NCBI RefSeq assembly: GCF_900115505.1
Contig: NZ_FOWQ01000005.1
Location: 248,001-312,000 of the forward strand
Direction: 5' to 3'
DNA from: Geodermatophilus dictyosporus
Lineage (GTDB): Bacteria; Actinomycetota; Actinomycetes; Mycobacteriales; Geodermatophilaceae
Length of the DNA stretch: 64,000 bases
The notes under the pieces were generated by a model. That model was not told the origin of the DNA and did no database searches. It saw only the letters and a list, made by a program, of their open reading frames with translations. The position numbers and the translations under genes were made by a program. Shown here in pieces: positions 42,284 to 46,689 of the stretch (its first letter is position 1; every line of letters begins with the position of its first letter).

Positions 42284-43303
42284 ATGGACCTGCAGACCCT
42301 GTGGTTCGCCGCCGTCGCGGTGCTGTGGACCGGCTTCCTGCTGCTGGAGGGCTTCGACTTCGGCGTCGCGGCGCTGCTGCCGGTGCTCGGCCGGCGCGGT
42401 CGGCAGGGCAGGGCGGACCGCCACCTGATGCTGCGCACCATCGGCCCGGTGTGGGACGGCAACGAGGTCTGGCTGATCACCGCCACCGGCGCGGTGTTCG
42501 CCGCCTTCCCCGGCTGGTACGCCACCTGGCTGCCGGCGCTGTACCTGCCCTTCGTCGTGGTGCTGCTCGGCCTGATCGTGCGGGCGGTGGCCTTCGAGTG
42601 GCGGCACTCGTCGCACGACCCGCGCTGGGACGCCGCCTGGACCCGCGTCATCACCGGCGGCTCGCTGGTCGCGGCGCTGGGCATCGGCGCGGCGCTGGGC
42701 GCCACCACCCTCGGCCTGCCGATCGACGGCGACGGCACCCGGGTGGGCGGGGCGTTCGTCGGGCTGGGCTGGTCGTCGCTGCTGGGCGCGCTCGCCGTCG
42801 TCGGCTGGTCGCTGGTGCACGGCGCGCTGTTCCTCGCGCTGAAGACCGACGGGCCGGTGCGCCTGCGGGCGCGGGCCTTCGCGCTGCGCTGGTCGCCGGT
42901 GGCCGCGCTGCCGCTGCTGGCCTGGGCCGGGCTGGTGCACCTGCGCTCGGGCACGCTCGTCACCGGCGTGCTGTGGCTGGTGGCGGCGCTGGCGGTCGTG
43001 CTCACCCGGACCCGCGTGCGGCTCGACCGCGAGGGGCAGGCCTTCGCCGGCTGGGCCGCGGTGCTGCTGGCCTCGGCGGCGACGCTGTTCGGCGCGGCCT
43101 ACCCGGTGGTGGTGCCCTCGACCATCGACCCGGCGTTCGACGTCACGATCGCCGAGGCCTCGGTCAGCGACTACACGCTCACCGTGATGACCTGGGTGGC
43201 CGCCGTCGGCCTGCCCGTGGTGCTGGCCTACCAGGCCTGGACCTACTGGGTGTTCCGCAAGCGGCTCACCGCCGAGCCGGAGTCCGAGACGGTGGCGGCA
43301 TGA
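42284..43303 (+). CDS. cydB: Cytochrome bd oxidase subunit II
   Basis: A 339-aa integral membrane subunit of about eight to nine helices, partner of CydA. Hallmarks: LLLEGFDFGVAALLPVLG at the start and RTIGPVWDGNEVWLI. ATG 42284 follows the cydA stop by 14 bp, and its stop overlaps the cydDC start by 4 nt. Confidence 0.95.
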   Translation: MDLQTLWFAAVAVLWTGFLLLEGFDFGVAALLPVLGRRGRQGRADRHLMLRTIGPVWDGNEVWLITATGAVFAAFPGWYATWLPALYLPFVVVLLGLIVRAVAFEWRHSSHDPRWDAAWTRVITGGSLVAALGIGAALGATTLGLPIDGDGTRVGGAFVGLGWSSLLGALAVVGWSLVHGALFLALKTDGPVRLRARAFALRWSPVAALPLLAWAGLVHLRSGTLVTGVLWLVAALAVVLTRTRVRLDREGQAFAGWAAVLLASAATLFGAAYPVVVPSTIDPAFDVTIAEASVSDYTLTVMTWVAAVGLPVVLAYQAWTYWVFRKRLTAEPESETVAA

Positions 43304-46300
43304 CCTCCCGGGGTCCGCTGGCGCCGCTGGCCGGCGTCCCCGGCCTGCCCGGCGCCCTGGCCCGGGCGGCGCTGGCCGCCCTCGGCCAGACCGCCGGGCT
43401 GGTGCTGCTCGCCGCCGGGCTCGCGCACGCGGTCGCCCGGGCCGCCGGGACGGCGGACGGCGCGCTGCTGCCCCCGCTGGCCCTCGCCGCCGGCGGTGCC
43501 GCGCTGCGAGCGCTGGCCGGCACCCTCGGCGAGCTCGCGGCCACCCGCGACGCCCGCCGCGCCGAGGACGCGCTGCGCCGCGCGCTGCTCGGCCGGCTGG
43601 CCGCCTCCCCCGCCGCCGTCACCGCGGCCGGCGGCCCCGCGCCCGCCGCGGTGCTGGCCACCACCCGGCTGGCCGACCTCGCGCCGGGCCTGGCCACCTA
43701 CCTGCCCGCGCTGGCGCAGACGCTCGTCGTCCCGCCGGTGCTGCTGGTCGTCCTGGCCGCCACCGACCTGCTCTCGGCCGGCCTGGTCGCGGTCACCCTC
43801 CCCCTGGTGCCGGTGTTCCTGGCGCTGGTGGGCCTGGCCACGCGCGACGGCACCGCCGACGCCGCCCGCGCCCTGGACCGGCTGGCCGCGCACGTGGCCG
43901 AGCTGGTGCGGGGCCTGCCGGTGCTCGTGGGACTGGGCCGCGCCGCCGACCAGGTGGCCGCGCTCGCCGAGCTCGGCGAGGTCTCCCGCCGGCGCACCCT
44001 GGCCACGCTGCGGCTGGCGTTCGTCTCGGCGCTGGTGCTCGAGCTGGTGGCCACGCTGTCGGTGGCGCTGGTCGCGGTCACCGTGGGCCTGCGGCTGGTG
44101 CACGGTGACCTCGCGCTGGCCACCGGCCTGACCGCGCTGCTGCTCGCGCCCGAGGCGTTCGCCCCACTGCGCGCCCTGGGTGCGGCGCACCACGCGAGCG
44201 AGGCCGCCACCCTGGCCGCGGCCGAGGCGCGCGCGGTGCTCGCCGCCTCCGGCGGCCGCTCCCCGGTGGCCGCCGCCTCCCCGGCGACGGACGACGACCC
44301 GCGCGGCGCCGGCGTCGTCGTCACCGGGCTGACCGTCCGCCACCCCGGCCGGGCGCTGCCCGCGCTGCCGCCGGTGGACCTGGCGCTGCGGCCCGGCGAG
44401 CTCGTCGTGCTGCGGGGCGCCAGCGGCTCGGGCAAGTCGACGCTGCTGGCCGCGCTCACCGGCGCGCTCGACCCGGCCGCCGAGGTCGCCGGCACCGTCA
44501 CCGGTGTCCCCGCCGGCGGGGTCGCGCTGGTGGCGCAGCACCCGCGGACGACCGCCCCCACCGTCGCCGACGAGCTGCGCCGGCACGCCGCGCCCGAGCC
44601 GGGCACCGACGCCGTCGTCGCCGAGGCGTTCGTCGTCGAGGCGCTGGCGCGGGTGGACGCCGCCGGCCTCGCCGGGCGCGACTGCGCCGCCCTCTCCCCC
44701 GGCGAGCTGCAGCGGGTGGCGGTGGCGCGGGCGCTGGTACGGGTCCGCCGCGGCGCCCGGCTGCTGCTGCTCGACGAGCCGACCGCGCACCTCGACGCGG
44801 CCTCGGCCGCCCGCGTCGCCGCCGTCCTCGCCGGGCTGCGGGGCACGGTCACCGTCCTGCTGGTCACCCACGACCCGGCGCTGGCCGCGCTCGCCGACCG
44901 CACCGTCGTGCTCCCCGGCGCCCCCGCCGTCCCCGCGAGATCTGCACAGTGGTCGTCATCAGCGCCTGATGACCGCCACTGTGCAGATCTCGCGGTCACC
45001 GGCGGGACGACCGCGGGCCCGACGACGACTCCGGCGGCTCCCGCGACGGCGACGGGTGCGCTGGGCTGGCCGCGGCGGGCGCTGGTCCGCGCCGTCGCGG
45101 CGGGCACCGCCTCCGCGGGCGCCGGTGTCGCGCTCACCGCCGTCTCCGGCTGGCTGATCGTGCGGGCCGCGGAGATGCCGCCGGTGCTCACCCTGCTGGT
45201 CGCGATCGTCGGCGTGCGGGCGTTCGGGCTGGGGCGGGCCGGGCTGCGGTGGGTGGAGCGGCTCGCCGCCCACGACGCCGCCCTGCGCGCAGCCGCCGAC
45301 CTGCGGGTGCGGGTCTGGCGCGCGCTGGCCGCCCAGGGCGTGGCCGCCGACCGGACGCCAGGCAGCGCGCTGGCCCGGGTGGTGGGCGACGTCGGACTGG
45401 TGCAGGACCTCTCGGTGCGGGTGGTCCCGCCGGCGCTGGTGGCGGCCACCGTCCCGGTGCTCGCCGTCGGCGCGCTCGCGCTGCTGCACCCGGCCGCCGC
45501 GGGCGCGGTCGCCCTGGTGCTGGCCGCCACGGTCCTCGGCGTGCTGCTGGTGCACCGGCGGGTCGACGCCGGCGCGGCCCGCGAGGAGGGGGCGCTCCGG
45601 GTGGGGGCGCTGCGCGACGTCACCACCGCGCTCGAGGGCGCGGCCGACCTGCGGGCGCACGGCCTGGCTGCCGCCACCGCCGCCGACCTCGCGGCCGTCG
45701 CCGGCCGGCGCGCCGGGGCGGCCGCGACCGGCGCCCGGGCCGGCGCGCTCGGCACCGGGCTGGTCGTGCTGGGCACCGGACTGGCCGCGGTGCTGGCCAC
45801 CGCGGCCGGCGCGGCCGGCGGCCTGGCCGGCCCGGAGGTCGCCGTCCTCGGCCTGGCCCCGCTCGCCCTGGCCGAGCCGCTCACCGGCCTCGTCTCCGCC
45901 CTGCAGCGGCGGGGCGCGCTGGCCGACGCCCGCGCCCGCCTCGACGCCGTCCTCACCGCGCCGGTCCCGGCCGATCCCGCCGGCCCGCTGCCCGCGCCCG
46001 CCCCGGTGCGCGAGGTCGCCGTCACCGGCCTGGTCGCGGGCTGGCCCGGCGGCCCCGACGTGCTGCGCGGGCTGTCCGCGCAGGCACGGGCGGACGGCGG
46101 CTGGCTGGTCGTCCGCGGGCCGTCGGGCGCCGGCAAGTCGACGCTGCTGTCCGTGCTGCTGGCGGCGCTGCGCCCGCGCGCGGGCCGGTACACCCTCGAC
46201 GGCGCCGACACCGCCCGGCTGACCGGCGACGCCGTCCGGTCGCGGACGGCGTGGCTGCCGCAGGACGCCCACGTGTTCGCCTCGACCATCCGCGCCAACC

Positions 46301-46689
46301 TGGCGCTGGCCGCGCCGCGCGGCGCGCTGGCCGGCCCGGACGGCGAGGCGCGCACGACCGCGGCGCTGGCCGCCGCCGGCCTGGGCCCGCTGCTCGCCGG
46401 CCTCCCCCAGGGCCTGGACACCCCGGTCGGCGCCGGCGGCACCGCGCTGTCCGGCGGCGAGCGGCGGCGGCTGGCCGCCGCCCGCGCGCTGCTGGCCGAC
46501 CGCGACGTCGTGCTGCTCGACGAGCCCACCGCGCACCTCGACCCGCCCACCGCCGCGGCGCTGGTGCGCGACCTGCGCCGGGCCCTGGCCGGCCGGGTGG
46601 TCGTCTGCGTGACCCACGACGACGCGCTCGAGCAGCCCGGCGACGCCGTCGTCCGGCTCGGTGCGGAGTCGGCCGCGCTGGCCGCCTAG
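43300..46689 (+). CDS. cydDC: Fused CydD-CydC ABC exporter for cytochrome bd assembly
   Basis: An 1129-aa protein joining two half transporters that export reduced thiols (glutathione or cysteine in E. coli) needed for bd oxidase assembly. Half 1: transmembrane domain to about residue 340; NBD with GASGSGKST, LSPGELQRVAVARAL (Pro for the usual Gly in LSGG) and LLLLDEPTAHLD. Half 2: transmembrane domain from about 590; NBD with GPSGAGKST, LSGGERRRLAAARAL and VVLLDEPTAHLD. Residues 545-565 in the linker are encoded by a 63-bp palindrome. ATG 43300 overlaps cydB. Its stop overlaps the convergent gene's stop. Confidence 0.93.
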   Translation: MTSRGPLAPLAGVPGLPGALARAALAALGQTAGLVLLAAGLAHAVARAAGTADGALLPPLALAAGGAALRALAGTLGELAATRDARRAEDALRRALLGRLAASPAAVTAAGGPAPAAVLATTRLADLAPGLATYLPALAQTLVVPPVLLVVLAATDLLSAGLVAVTLPLVPVFLALVGLATRDGTADAARALDRLAAHVAELVRGLPVLVGLGRAADQVAALAELGEVSRRRTLATLRLAFVSALVLELVATLSVALVAVTVGLRLVHGDLALATGLTALLLAPEAFAPLRALGAAHHASEAATLAAAEARAVLAASGGRSPVAAASPATDDDPRGAGVVVTGLTVRHPGRALPALPPVDLALRPGELVVLRGASGSGKSTLLAALTGALDPAAEVAGTVTGVPAGGVALVAQHPRTTAPTVADELRRHAAPEPGTDAVVAEAFVVEALARVDAAGLAGRDCAALSPGELQRVAVARALVRVRRGARLLLLDEPTAHLDAASAARVAAVLAGLRGTVTVLLVTHDPALAALADRTVVLPGAPAVPARSAQWSSSAPDDRHCADLAVTGGTTAGPTTTPAAPATATGALGWPRRALVRAVAAGTASAGAGVALTAVSGWLIVRAAEMPPVLTLLVAIVGVRAFGLGRAGLRWVERLAAHDAALRAAADLRVRVWRALAAQGVAADRTPGSALARVVGDVGLVQDLSVRVVPPALVAATVPVLAVGALALLHPAAAGAVALVLAATVLGVLLVHRRVDAGAAREEGALRVGALRDVTTALEGAADLRAHGLAAATAADLAAVAGRRAGAAATGARAGALGTGLVVLGTGLAAVLATAAGAAGGLAGPEVAVLGLAPLALAEPLTGLVSALQRRGALADARARLDAVLTAPVPADPAGPLPAPAPVREVAVTGLVAGWPGGPDVLRGLSAQARADGGWLVVRGPSGAGKSTLLSVLLAALRPRAGRYTLDGADTARLTGDAVRSRTAWLPQDAHVFASTIRANLALAAPRGALAGPDGEARTTAALAAAGLGPLLAGLPQGLDTPVGAGGTALSGGERRRLAAARALLADRDVVLLDEPTAHLDPPTAAALVRDLRRALAGRVVVCVTHDDALEQPGDAVVRLGAESAALAA
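44933..44995. repeat. 63-bp palindrome embedded in frame in cydDC
   Basis: Left arm 44933-44952 pairs perfectly (20 of 20) with 44976-44995; inner arms GTCATCAG (44955-44962) and CTGATGAC (44966-44973) add 8 more pairs around a CGC loop. Its AGATCTGCACAGTGG core is far less GC-rich than the surrounding gene. The length is exactly 21 codons, and no stop arises. It looks like an inserted repeat element tolerated in the flexible linker between the two halves. Confidence 0.85.

Follow-up and report, generated by a model that had tools for sequence, protein, structure and literature searches.

A hairpin family that flanks cognate DUF559 nuclease genes in Geodermatophilaceae, with an in-frame copy in a cydDC fusion gene

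Introduction

The closest described systems to the one analysed here are those of the REP/REPIN-RAYT type. In the parts of the literature available to us they form REPtrons, in which the enzyme gene is flanked by cognate copies and different enzymes go with different repeats (PMC3116915, PMC8049555, PMC6006769), and a second REP super-family carries, according to the available part of its description, a CGTC tetranucleotide tag (PMC3733652). Vsr REase domains of the MTES_1575 type are described, in the accessible portion of the report, as part of giant HEPN, defence-like proteins, with an example from Microbacterium (PMC3710099). As far as the text of the open-access literature, with few subscription journals, was accessible, no report linking DUF559 or Vsr to palindromic repeats was found.

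We analysed a stretch of 64,000 nucleotides from Geodermatophilus dictyosporus (the window), for which a preliminary description had claimed a 63-bp near-perfect palindrome in frame in the linker of a cydDC fusion gene. This palindrome is almost certainly a copy of a nuclease-associated hairpin family. Like REP/REPIN-RAYT repeats, as the accessible parts of their descriptions present them, the family has inverted short palindromic arms that form a hairpin, lies mostly outside genes and includes tandem arrays. The enzyme here is a DUF559/Vsr-like nuclease, whereas REPtrons hold a Y1 HuH (TnpA-REP) transposase. The Y1 family PF01797, which alone among transposases was searched as a family, was found in 0 of 35 genomes, the same search being positive in 5 of 14 well-known control genomes, and a Y1/RAYT mobiliser of the palindromes was ruled out on this ground. 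The GTAG tag of REPs was likewise missing: none of the 139 listed copies of the window's palindrome type (T1) has GTAG or CTAC in the 9 nt beside either end. Because of these two results we conclude that the family works like REP/REPIN-RAYT but is not a member of it. The raw count of copies with CGTC or GACG no farther than 9 nt from an end was 76 of 139; in some lineages the word belongs to a longer palindrome, CGACGA..TCGTCG.

Results

The palindrome CCGCGAGATCTGCACAGTGGTCGTCATCAGCGCCTGATGACCGCCACTGTGCAGATCTCGCGG (63 nt) occupies 44933-44995, and the longest inverted repeat listed by a scan of the window is centred on it. Its left half has 31 positions, 28 of which pair with the right half (unpaired: 21, 22 and 31), giving 20 outer and 8 inner pairs round a 3-nt loop, a count identical to that of the preliminary description. 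The DNA fold reached -34.3 kcal/mol (z -10.8) and the RNA fold -55.4 kcal/mol (z -11.4), each equalled by 0 of 200 shuffles. The palindrome is translated in frame (...ARSAQWSSSAPDDRHCADLAV...) between the CydD and CydC halves of a 1127-residue fusion with two ABC domains, where the best hairpin score of the linker was 33, against a maximum of 11 across 40 codon shuffles. With a GC content of 63% vs 82% for the cydDC gene, it is poorer in GC than its host, as had been claimed, and the in-frame, near-perfect palindrome of the preliminary description was confirmed by its pairing and by the shuffles. The features are as follows, the start of cydDC having been picked by eye at 43306 within a longer open frame (42301-46689).

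43306..46689, + strand: cydDC fusion gene hosting the palindrome (frame and domain reading)
44933..44995, no strand: the complete 63-nt palindrome (hairpin), in frame in the linker of cydDC (window scan, folding, pairing)
44936..44992, no strand: 57-nt family core CGAGATC...GATCTCG, type T1 (copy comparison)
44936..44952, + strand: left outer arm CGAGATCTGCACAGTGG, the portion that varies with nuclease type (arm comparison)
44953..44975, no strand: central core and 3-nt loop, CATCAG/CTGATG stem top (copy comparison)
44976..44992, - strand: right outer arm, the inverted left arm, arm centres 40 bp apart (arm comparison)

The arm GAGATCTGCACAGTGG was found as paired inverted arms with the same spacing at nine places of the window's own genome (G000) when up to three mismatches were accepted, and the exact T1 pattern GATCTGCACA-N18..46-TGTGCAGATC has 8 copies there. 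This exact pattern occurred in 26 of 146 genomes (own genome included), all of one taxonomic family; with 1 to 17 copies per genome the copies are few, unlike those of REP-RAYT systems. The preliminary description had held that a palindrome found nowhere else in related genomes would speak against a mobile element, and the 8 exact copies at home and up to 17 in relatives show that it does occur elsewhere. Genomes of other families gave no exact match (0 of 60), nor did a reversed-pattern control in the same genome search. Among the matches listed by a wider scan for the arm pattern, most came from Blastococcus and Geodermatophilus; the others were a related repeat of more complex build in Microbacterium and single matches here and there. 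The outer arms fall into several types, T1 (GATCTGCACA), T2 (GATCGGCG[A/G]TCTCG), T3 (GATCnCGTGATCTCG) and T7 (CGAACTCGTGG), and others exist.

From the matches listed, with Microbacterium-type and stray loci left out, 136 distinct T1 copies were taken. Their inner length was 51 or 52 (one 53), though 38-66 was permitted, and the family core spanned 57-58 nt in 135 of the 136; the inner length was 51-52 with one 53 in T2 and 53-54 in T3. Covariation was detected at some inner positions of the T1 hairpin, such as position 15, where 96 of 135 copies had Watson-Crick pairs (shuffled mean 51, maximum 68), and was absent from position 18 (67 pairs, shuffled mean 72). Overlapping T3 palindromes about 41 nt apart (L358, L363, G004:C11:5512-5606) formed regularly spaced three-arm arrays, like BIME arrays.

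For the placement of T1 copies, 103 were considered, and 21 too near a locus end and one without a neighbour were left out. Nine of the 81 classed copies lay inside called genes, several of them probably with mis-called starts, and the 72 intergenic copies were in tandem (38), convergent (25) or divergent (9) gaps, the background set of 314 gaps containing 57 convergent ones. The nearest stop codon lay a median of 10 nt away (n=63). The cydDC copy is thus an unusual, intragenic member of the family, since the family lies mostly outside genes, at gene 3' ends. Rickettsia palindromic elements (RPE) are palindromes inserted in frame in protein genes, and by that description the window palindrome resembles them; it differs from them in that its family is mostly extragenic, tied to a nuclease and found in another phylum. 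A second intragenic T1 copy was seen in a glycosyltransferase-like open frame in G000 (L012 1501-1560, G000:C7:225244) and G006, and a site with matching flanks is occupied in G. siccatus (further loci of this set: L054, L064 and L077).

Five palindrome pairs about 1 kb apart were read in Geodermatophilaceae. Four of them (L001, L097, L123 and L435) each enclose a single gene, about 290 codons long, whose C-terminal domain is DUF559, and the fifth (L434, two T1 palindromes, G050:C2:889916-890855, the second palindrome at 890804) encloses a gene resembling a metallo-beta-lactamase-fold hydrolase. A transposase was visible in none of the five, and the wider pairs L105 and L082 enclosed no DUF559 gene. 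In the window genome the nuclease gene (G000:C8:37068-37949) lies between two copies of the window's palindrome type. A search of 90 genomes gave an orthologous group of the DUF559 query (group A) comprising 34 genes in 30 genomes, with 44-81% identity and E <1e-60, followed after a gap by paralogues at E 3e-41 and weaker with identity of 44% or less.

The flanks of these genes were scanned for hairpins over 150 nt per side, a score of at least 12 being taken as strong. As in a REPtron, the enzyme gene is bordered by copies of the dispersed palindrome: of the 34 group-A genes, 28 have strong hairpins on both sides, and every one has at least one such flank. Group-B DUF559 paralogues were dropped as a negative control, having palindromes of their own (both sides 7 of 20, at least one side 16 of 20), and real genes of the same genera were therefore used as controls. 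After removal of 74 with a T1 palindrome within 150 nt, 202 of 276 such genes remained, 1 with hairpins on both sides and 42 with a hairpin on at least one (Fisher, p 2e-29 for both flanks and 3e-20 for at least one). By eye, a palindrome stands on both sides of all 30 first-listed group-A genes, the pair in G052 differing strongly in sequence. The G052 gene (L204, draft genome) is the most divergent of group A and is bordered at both ends by an unrelated palindrome richer in AT (TTGGTGATCTTGACCTTA...). In B. endophyticus a second DUF559 gene (L061) has just one palindromic flank, which is T7-like.

In 27 of 34 group-A genes the gene strand carries a TGTGGAC box 40-51 nt ahead of the matched region. 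Group-B genes, of which 18 of 20 could be oriented, have the box upstream in 13 of the 18 (in 16 when both strands are counted), compared with 4 of 352 control genes. The box, which we take to resemble a DnaA box, is possibly a DnaA-box-like or promoter element. An extended form, CTGTGGAC(G/A)(G/A)CG, was noticed upstream of group-A genes (L175-L204, L273-L276). In Geodermatophilus the group-A gene often lies, as read by eye, beside a purS-like gene (L184, L176, L183 and others), and because of this neighbour it seems for the most part to be passed on at one locus, with changes of type in the palindromes around it.

The gene product is predicted to be a nuclease of the DUF559/Vsr fold. Pfam DUF559 (PF04480) matched above its cut-off in three scanned nuclease proteins. 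In the accessible portion of their description the MTES_1575-type domains are likewise Vsr-type nuclease domains with winged helices, and the MTES_1575 REase Pfam match in the nuclease fell below its own cut-off; those domains, however, sit in giant defence-like proteins, and palindromes go unmentioned in that portion. The AlphaFold model was weak, with a mean pLDDT of 54 (four sequences); ten-residue blocks from residue 191 on scored 66-87, but 42-44 over 241-260, where the DG..H motif sits. The top PDB match of this weak model was the catalytic domain of I-Bth0305I (3r3p; probability 0.91, E 0.19), and the sole phmmer match was an endonuclease-like protein (E 0.48). Residues E196, D229, E240, D242 and H246, which we take to be catalytic by the Vsr fold, are retained in 33-34 of 34 group-A rows and form a putative active site. 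I-Bth0305I belongs to the EDxHD group of Vsr-related homing endonucleases. Although these enzymes provide the nearest solved fold to the model, the gene here is free-standing between palindromes, with no intron seen and with dispersed hairpin copies.

The outer arm of the palindrome differs between nuclease clades, and dispersed copies were counted for T1, T2, T3 and T7 only, in 54 genomes. The type of each nuclease was assigned by a half-arm match within 200 nt, by which G004 was also counted as T2 and G049 as T7, and G013, T2-like by eye, as non-cognate. Genomes with the cognate gene contained dispersed copies in 8 of 8 (T1), 9 of 9 (T2), 4 of 4 (T3, forward strand only, G009 having 1 forward and 4 reverse copies) and 7 of 8 (T7) cases, and genomes without it in 9 of 46, 8 of 45, 2 of 50 and 7 of 46, respectively. 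As in REPtrons, dispersed copies thus match the clade of the resident enzyme: across the 30 group-A genomes 137 of 203 copies were cognate, compared with 51.9 +- 15.5 after permutation (maximum 115 in 20,000 permutations), a comparison from which relatedness was not removed. The non-cognate copies numbered 66 of 203 and included 11 T1 copies in G035, whose gene is of type T2; G025, outside the 30 genomes, holds 14 T1 copies and no group-A gene. Four genomes (G003, G011, G044 and G050) carry two group-A genes each, and the two genes of a genome differ in palindrome type. A second nuclease tree, of 32 sequences, was built without G015 (mistranslated) and G052 (long branch) and with types labelled by eye; on it all palindrome types taken together needed 6 changes, the minimum possible, against a shuffled mean of 19.5 uncorrected for descent; T2 alone was scattered, with 3 changes.

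Using those 121 of the known copies that had usable loci, and setting aside 53 pairs with a single matching flank, we found 25 orthologous sites at which both flanks matched between species. The type differed by species in 11 of the 25, including the cydDC linker, and such shared sites with switched types are a further difference from REP-RAYT systems. At site 1, a convergent gene pair, G000 has T1, G017 and G001 have T2, and G009, G004 and G019 have T3, the palindromes of all six species matching their own nuclease type; G010 has a 35-nt spacer without the palindrome, and the second flank was not found in G002 and G006. At site 3, T1 was present in the window genome only, of 22 species read. 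The similarity of T3 cores, compared as a test of whole-element replacement, was 0.66 at orthologous sites vs 0.59 at other sites. At a site that looks by eye like a paa operon (L305 vs L280, L286 and others), several species hold a G-rich hairpin of another kind at the position of the T1 palindrome of G000, which would look like the replacement of one hairpin by an unrelated one.

Copies within one genome share irregularities. Among the 25 B. endophyticus copies in the matches listed, an A.C mispair was common to 14 and a C.C mispair to 16, and both copies flanking the nuclease gene of this species (L097) carry the two mispairs. These shared mispairs point to descent by copying, as selection for pairing or for symmetric binding would not yield them. 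The copying does not seem very recent, since the inner 31 nt have no exact duplicate among the 25 listed copies. No insertion event was caught at the sites compared, with neither a target duplication nor a strain-level polymorphism seen; the flanks differed too much for exact insertion boundaries to be read, and each species was represented by one genome.

The cydDC gene was sought in 29 genomes; an orthologue was found in 25, and 22 linkers could be parsed. A hairpin score of at least 12 was reached in 17 of the 22, and in 12 the score was above all 40 codon shuffles; the five with scores below 12 were G003, G013, G017, G019 and G026, and among unparsed linkers that of G004 has a hairpin and those of G018 and G035 have none. 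Related in-frame hairpins thus occur in further Geodermatophilus species, and their outer arms differ, with T1 in G000 and G002, T2 in G004 and G016, and T7 in G012. The linker type is often that of the resident nuclease (exceptions: G002, G004 and G016). The linkers of G013 (L234), G003 (L237) and G007 (L241) contain a direct repeat of GTGCACACACCG-like words, read as RAHTA in the protein, with no clear palindrome.

The linker palindromes encode similar residues across species, SWPSAPDRHE-like and in one frame, and because of this likeness a single old in-frame insertion whose arms changed later would be the simplest history. A recent single capture was ruled out by the related in-frame palindromes at the same spot in many species. 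Accordingly, what remains of the proposal that a small mobile palindrome was captured at a domain border is a dispersed family and a tolerant inter-domain linker; the idea of a fresh capture falls, the same spot being filled in many Geodermatophilus species. The preliminary description had also held that conservation of the palindrome at this site in distant cydDC genes would speak against capture, and the orthologues bear this out by half: the place is shared, the outer arms are not. The window palindrome is best read as an old copy that is non-autonomous and that the linker tolerates.

Dispersal of one group-B palindrome type was sought and not found: the type occurred in 4 of 51 genomes, all listed places being beside a DUF559 gene (G080 included). 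In Microbacterium azadirachtae (L063 6677-7740), of a distant genus, a DUF559 gene is bordered by two palindromes that read alike and lie in direct orientation; they are complex and have the TGTGCAGATC word of the window's family as their building block. Among 30 DUF559 loci across the phylum, which are the best-scoring ones, some ended by contig ends and with gene ends set by a rough rule, 3 had a common 8-14 nt palindrome word on both sides, one of them that of the window genome. The nuclease-palindrome system is therefore well supported in Geodermatophilaceae and patchy beyond; a universal association of DUF559 with palindromes found no support in these 30 loci beyond Geodermatophilaceae and Microbacterium.

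Discussion

By analogy, we lean slightly towards a REPIN/RAYT-like system built on a Vsr/DUF559 nuclease, which would copy or overwrite cognate hairpins at long-lived addresses. In such a system the nuclease would recognise its cognate palindrome by the outer arms, an inverted pair of 17-18 bp each, spaced by about 41 bp with the hairpin core between them, and would cut or nick there. Cognate palindromes would thereby be copied both to new places and to places where a palindrome already stands; we infer both that the nuclease performs the copying and the manner in which it does so. When the specificity of the nuclease changed in a lineage, palindromes at old addresses might be overwritten with the new type, and copies would persist at the 3' ends of genes and, in rare cases, within the reading frame of a tolerant linker like that of cydDC. 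Several results weigh against this reading: no insertion event was caught, 66 of 203 copies are non-cognate and G025 holds T1 copies with no group-A gene, some palindrome pairs enclose other genes, L061 is flanked on a single side, the group-B type keeps to the neighbourhood of its gene, 3 of 30 loci across the phylum share a word on both sides, and the fold model is weak. A variant to which we give somewhat less than an even chance is a selfish or domesticated element unrelated to RAYTs, in which a shift in the specificity of the Vsr/DUF559 nuclease would be followed by the conversion, in concert and to its own cognate sequence, of all fixed-address palindromes, the one in cydDC included. If that were true, Actinomycetota would hold, in the paralogous DUF559 genes with their own palindromes, a large family of "address-keeping" hairpin replicators that has gone unnoticed.

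Among explanations without copying, the best is that the palindromes are sites of a host regulator, 3'-end hairpins or binding sites to which the DUF559 protein binds and with which it co-evolves in place, in the manner of operator and repressor. The low copy number, the strict arm spacing near four helical turns and the conserved box upstream of the nuclease gene would all suit it, and so would the addresses preserved across species (25 clusters) with types changing in place. A regulator site would, however, be expected upstream of genes, whereas the copies lie near stop codons (median 10 nt, n=63), and palindromes stand mostly on both sides of the nuclease gene; moreover, the copies of one genome have in common mispairs outside the outer arms that do not pair, and some sites are filled in few species, site 3 in the window genome only of 22. 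We regard this explanation as unlikely.

It is improbable that the palindromes are ordinary bidirectional terminators or mRNA-stabilising hairpins whose likeness within a genome is incidental. Such elements would have no need for shared 12-nt arms, for a match to the nuclease clade or for copies flanking a nuclease gene; the cydDC copy lies within a gene, and no obvious T run was seen by eye in the printed T1 flanks. The position at gene 3' ends does fit, with 25 of 72 intergenic copies in convergent gaps vs 57 of 314 background gaps, as does site 3, where several species have an unrelated G-rich hairpin in the place of the T1 of G000. Dispersed, palindromic, extragenic elements are often MITEs or REPs, and the close pair at G050:C2 and two wider pairs do enclose something other than DUF559; but non-autonomous remnants (MITEs) of an overlooked classical insertion sequence or RAYT are highly improbable, given PF01797 in 0 of 35 genomes (controls 5 of 14) and a DUF559 gene in 4 of 5 pairs of about 1 kb, compared with a visible transposase in 0 of 5. 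Repeated independent capture, at hot spots of insertion that include the cydDC linker, of mobile palindromes unrelated to one another is the preliminary description's view repeated and is likewise highly improbable: convergent gene ends and linkers do tolerate inserts, but 11 of 25 sites common to different types and similar cydDC residues in one frame would require many coincidences.

The findings place DUF559, a domain of unknown function present in 49 of 119 sampled genomes of the window's phylum, in a function-shaped context, and they suggest that intragenomic replicators like REPs could have evolved repeatedly, using different enzymes. The switching of types from site to site is a natural experiment on how the nuclease and its scattered targets are kept matched, and it suggests a way for an in-frame palindrome to be maintained within a protein linker.

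Near-matches to the arm were also seen at what appear to be the ends of a 23S rRNA gene (GAGAACTGCACAGTGG and CAGAACCGCACAGTGG, at L008 1501-1516 (G000:C3:1930) and G000:C3:5225); these are probably a processing stem, the likeness to the arm being likely due to chance.
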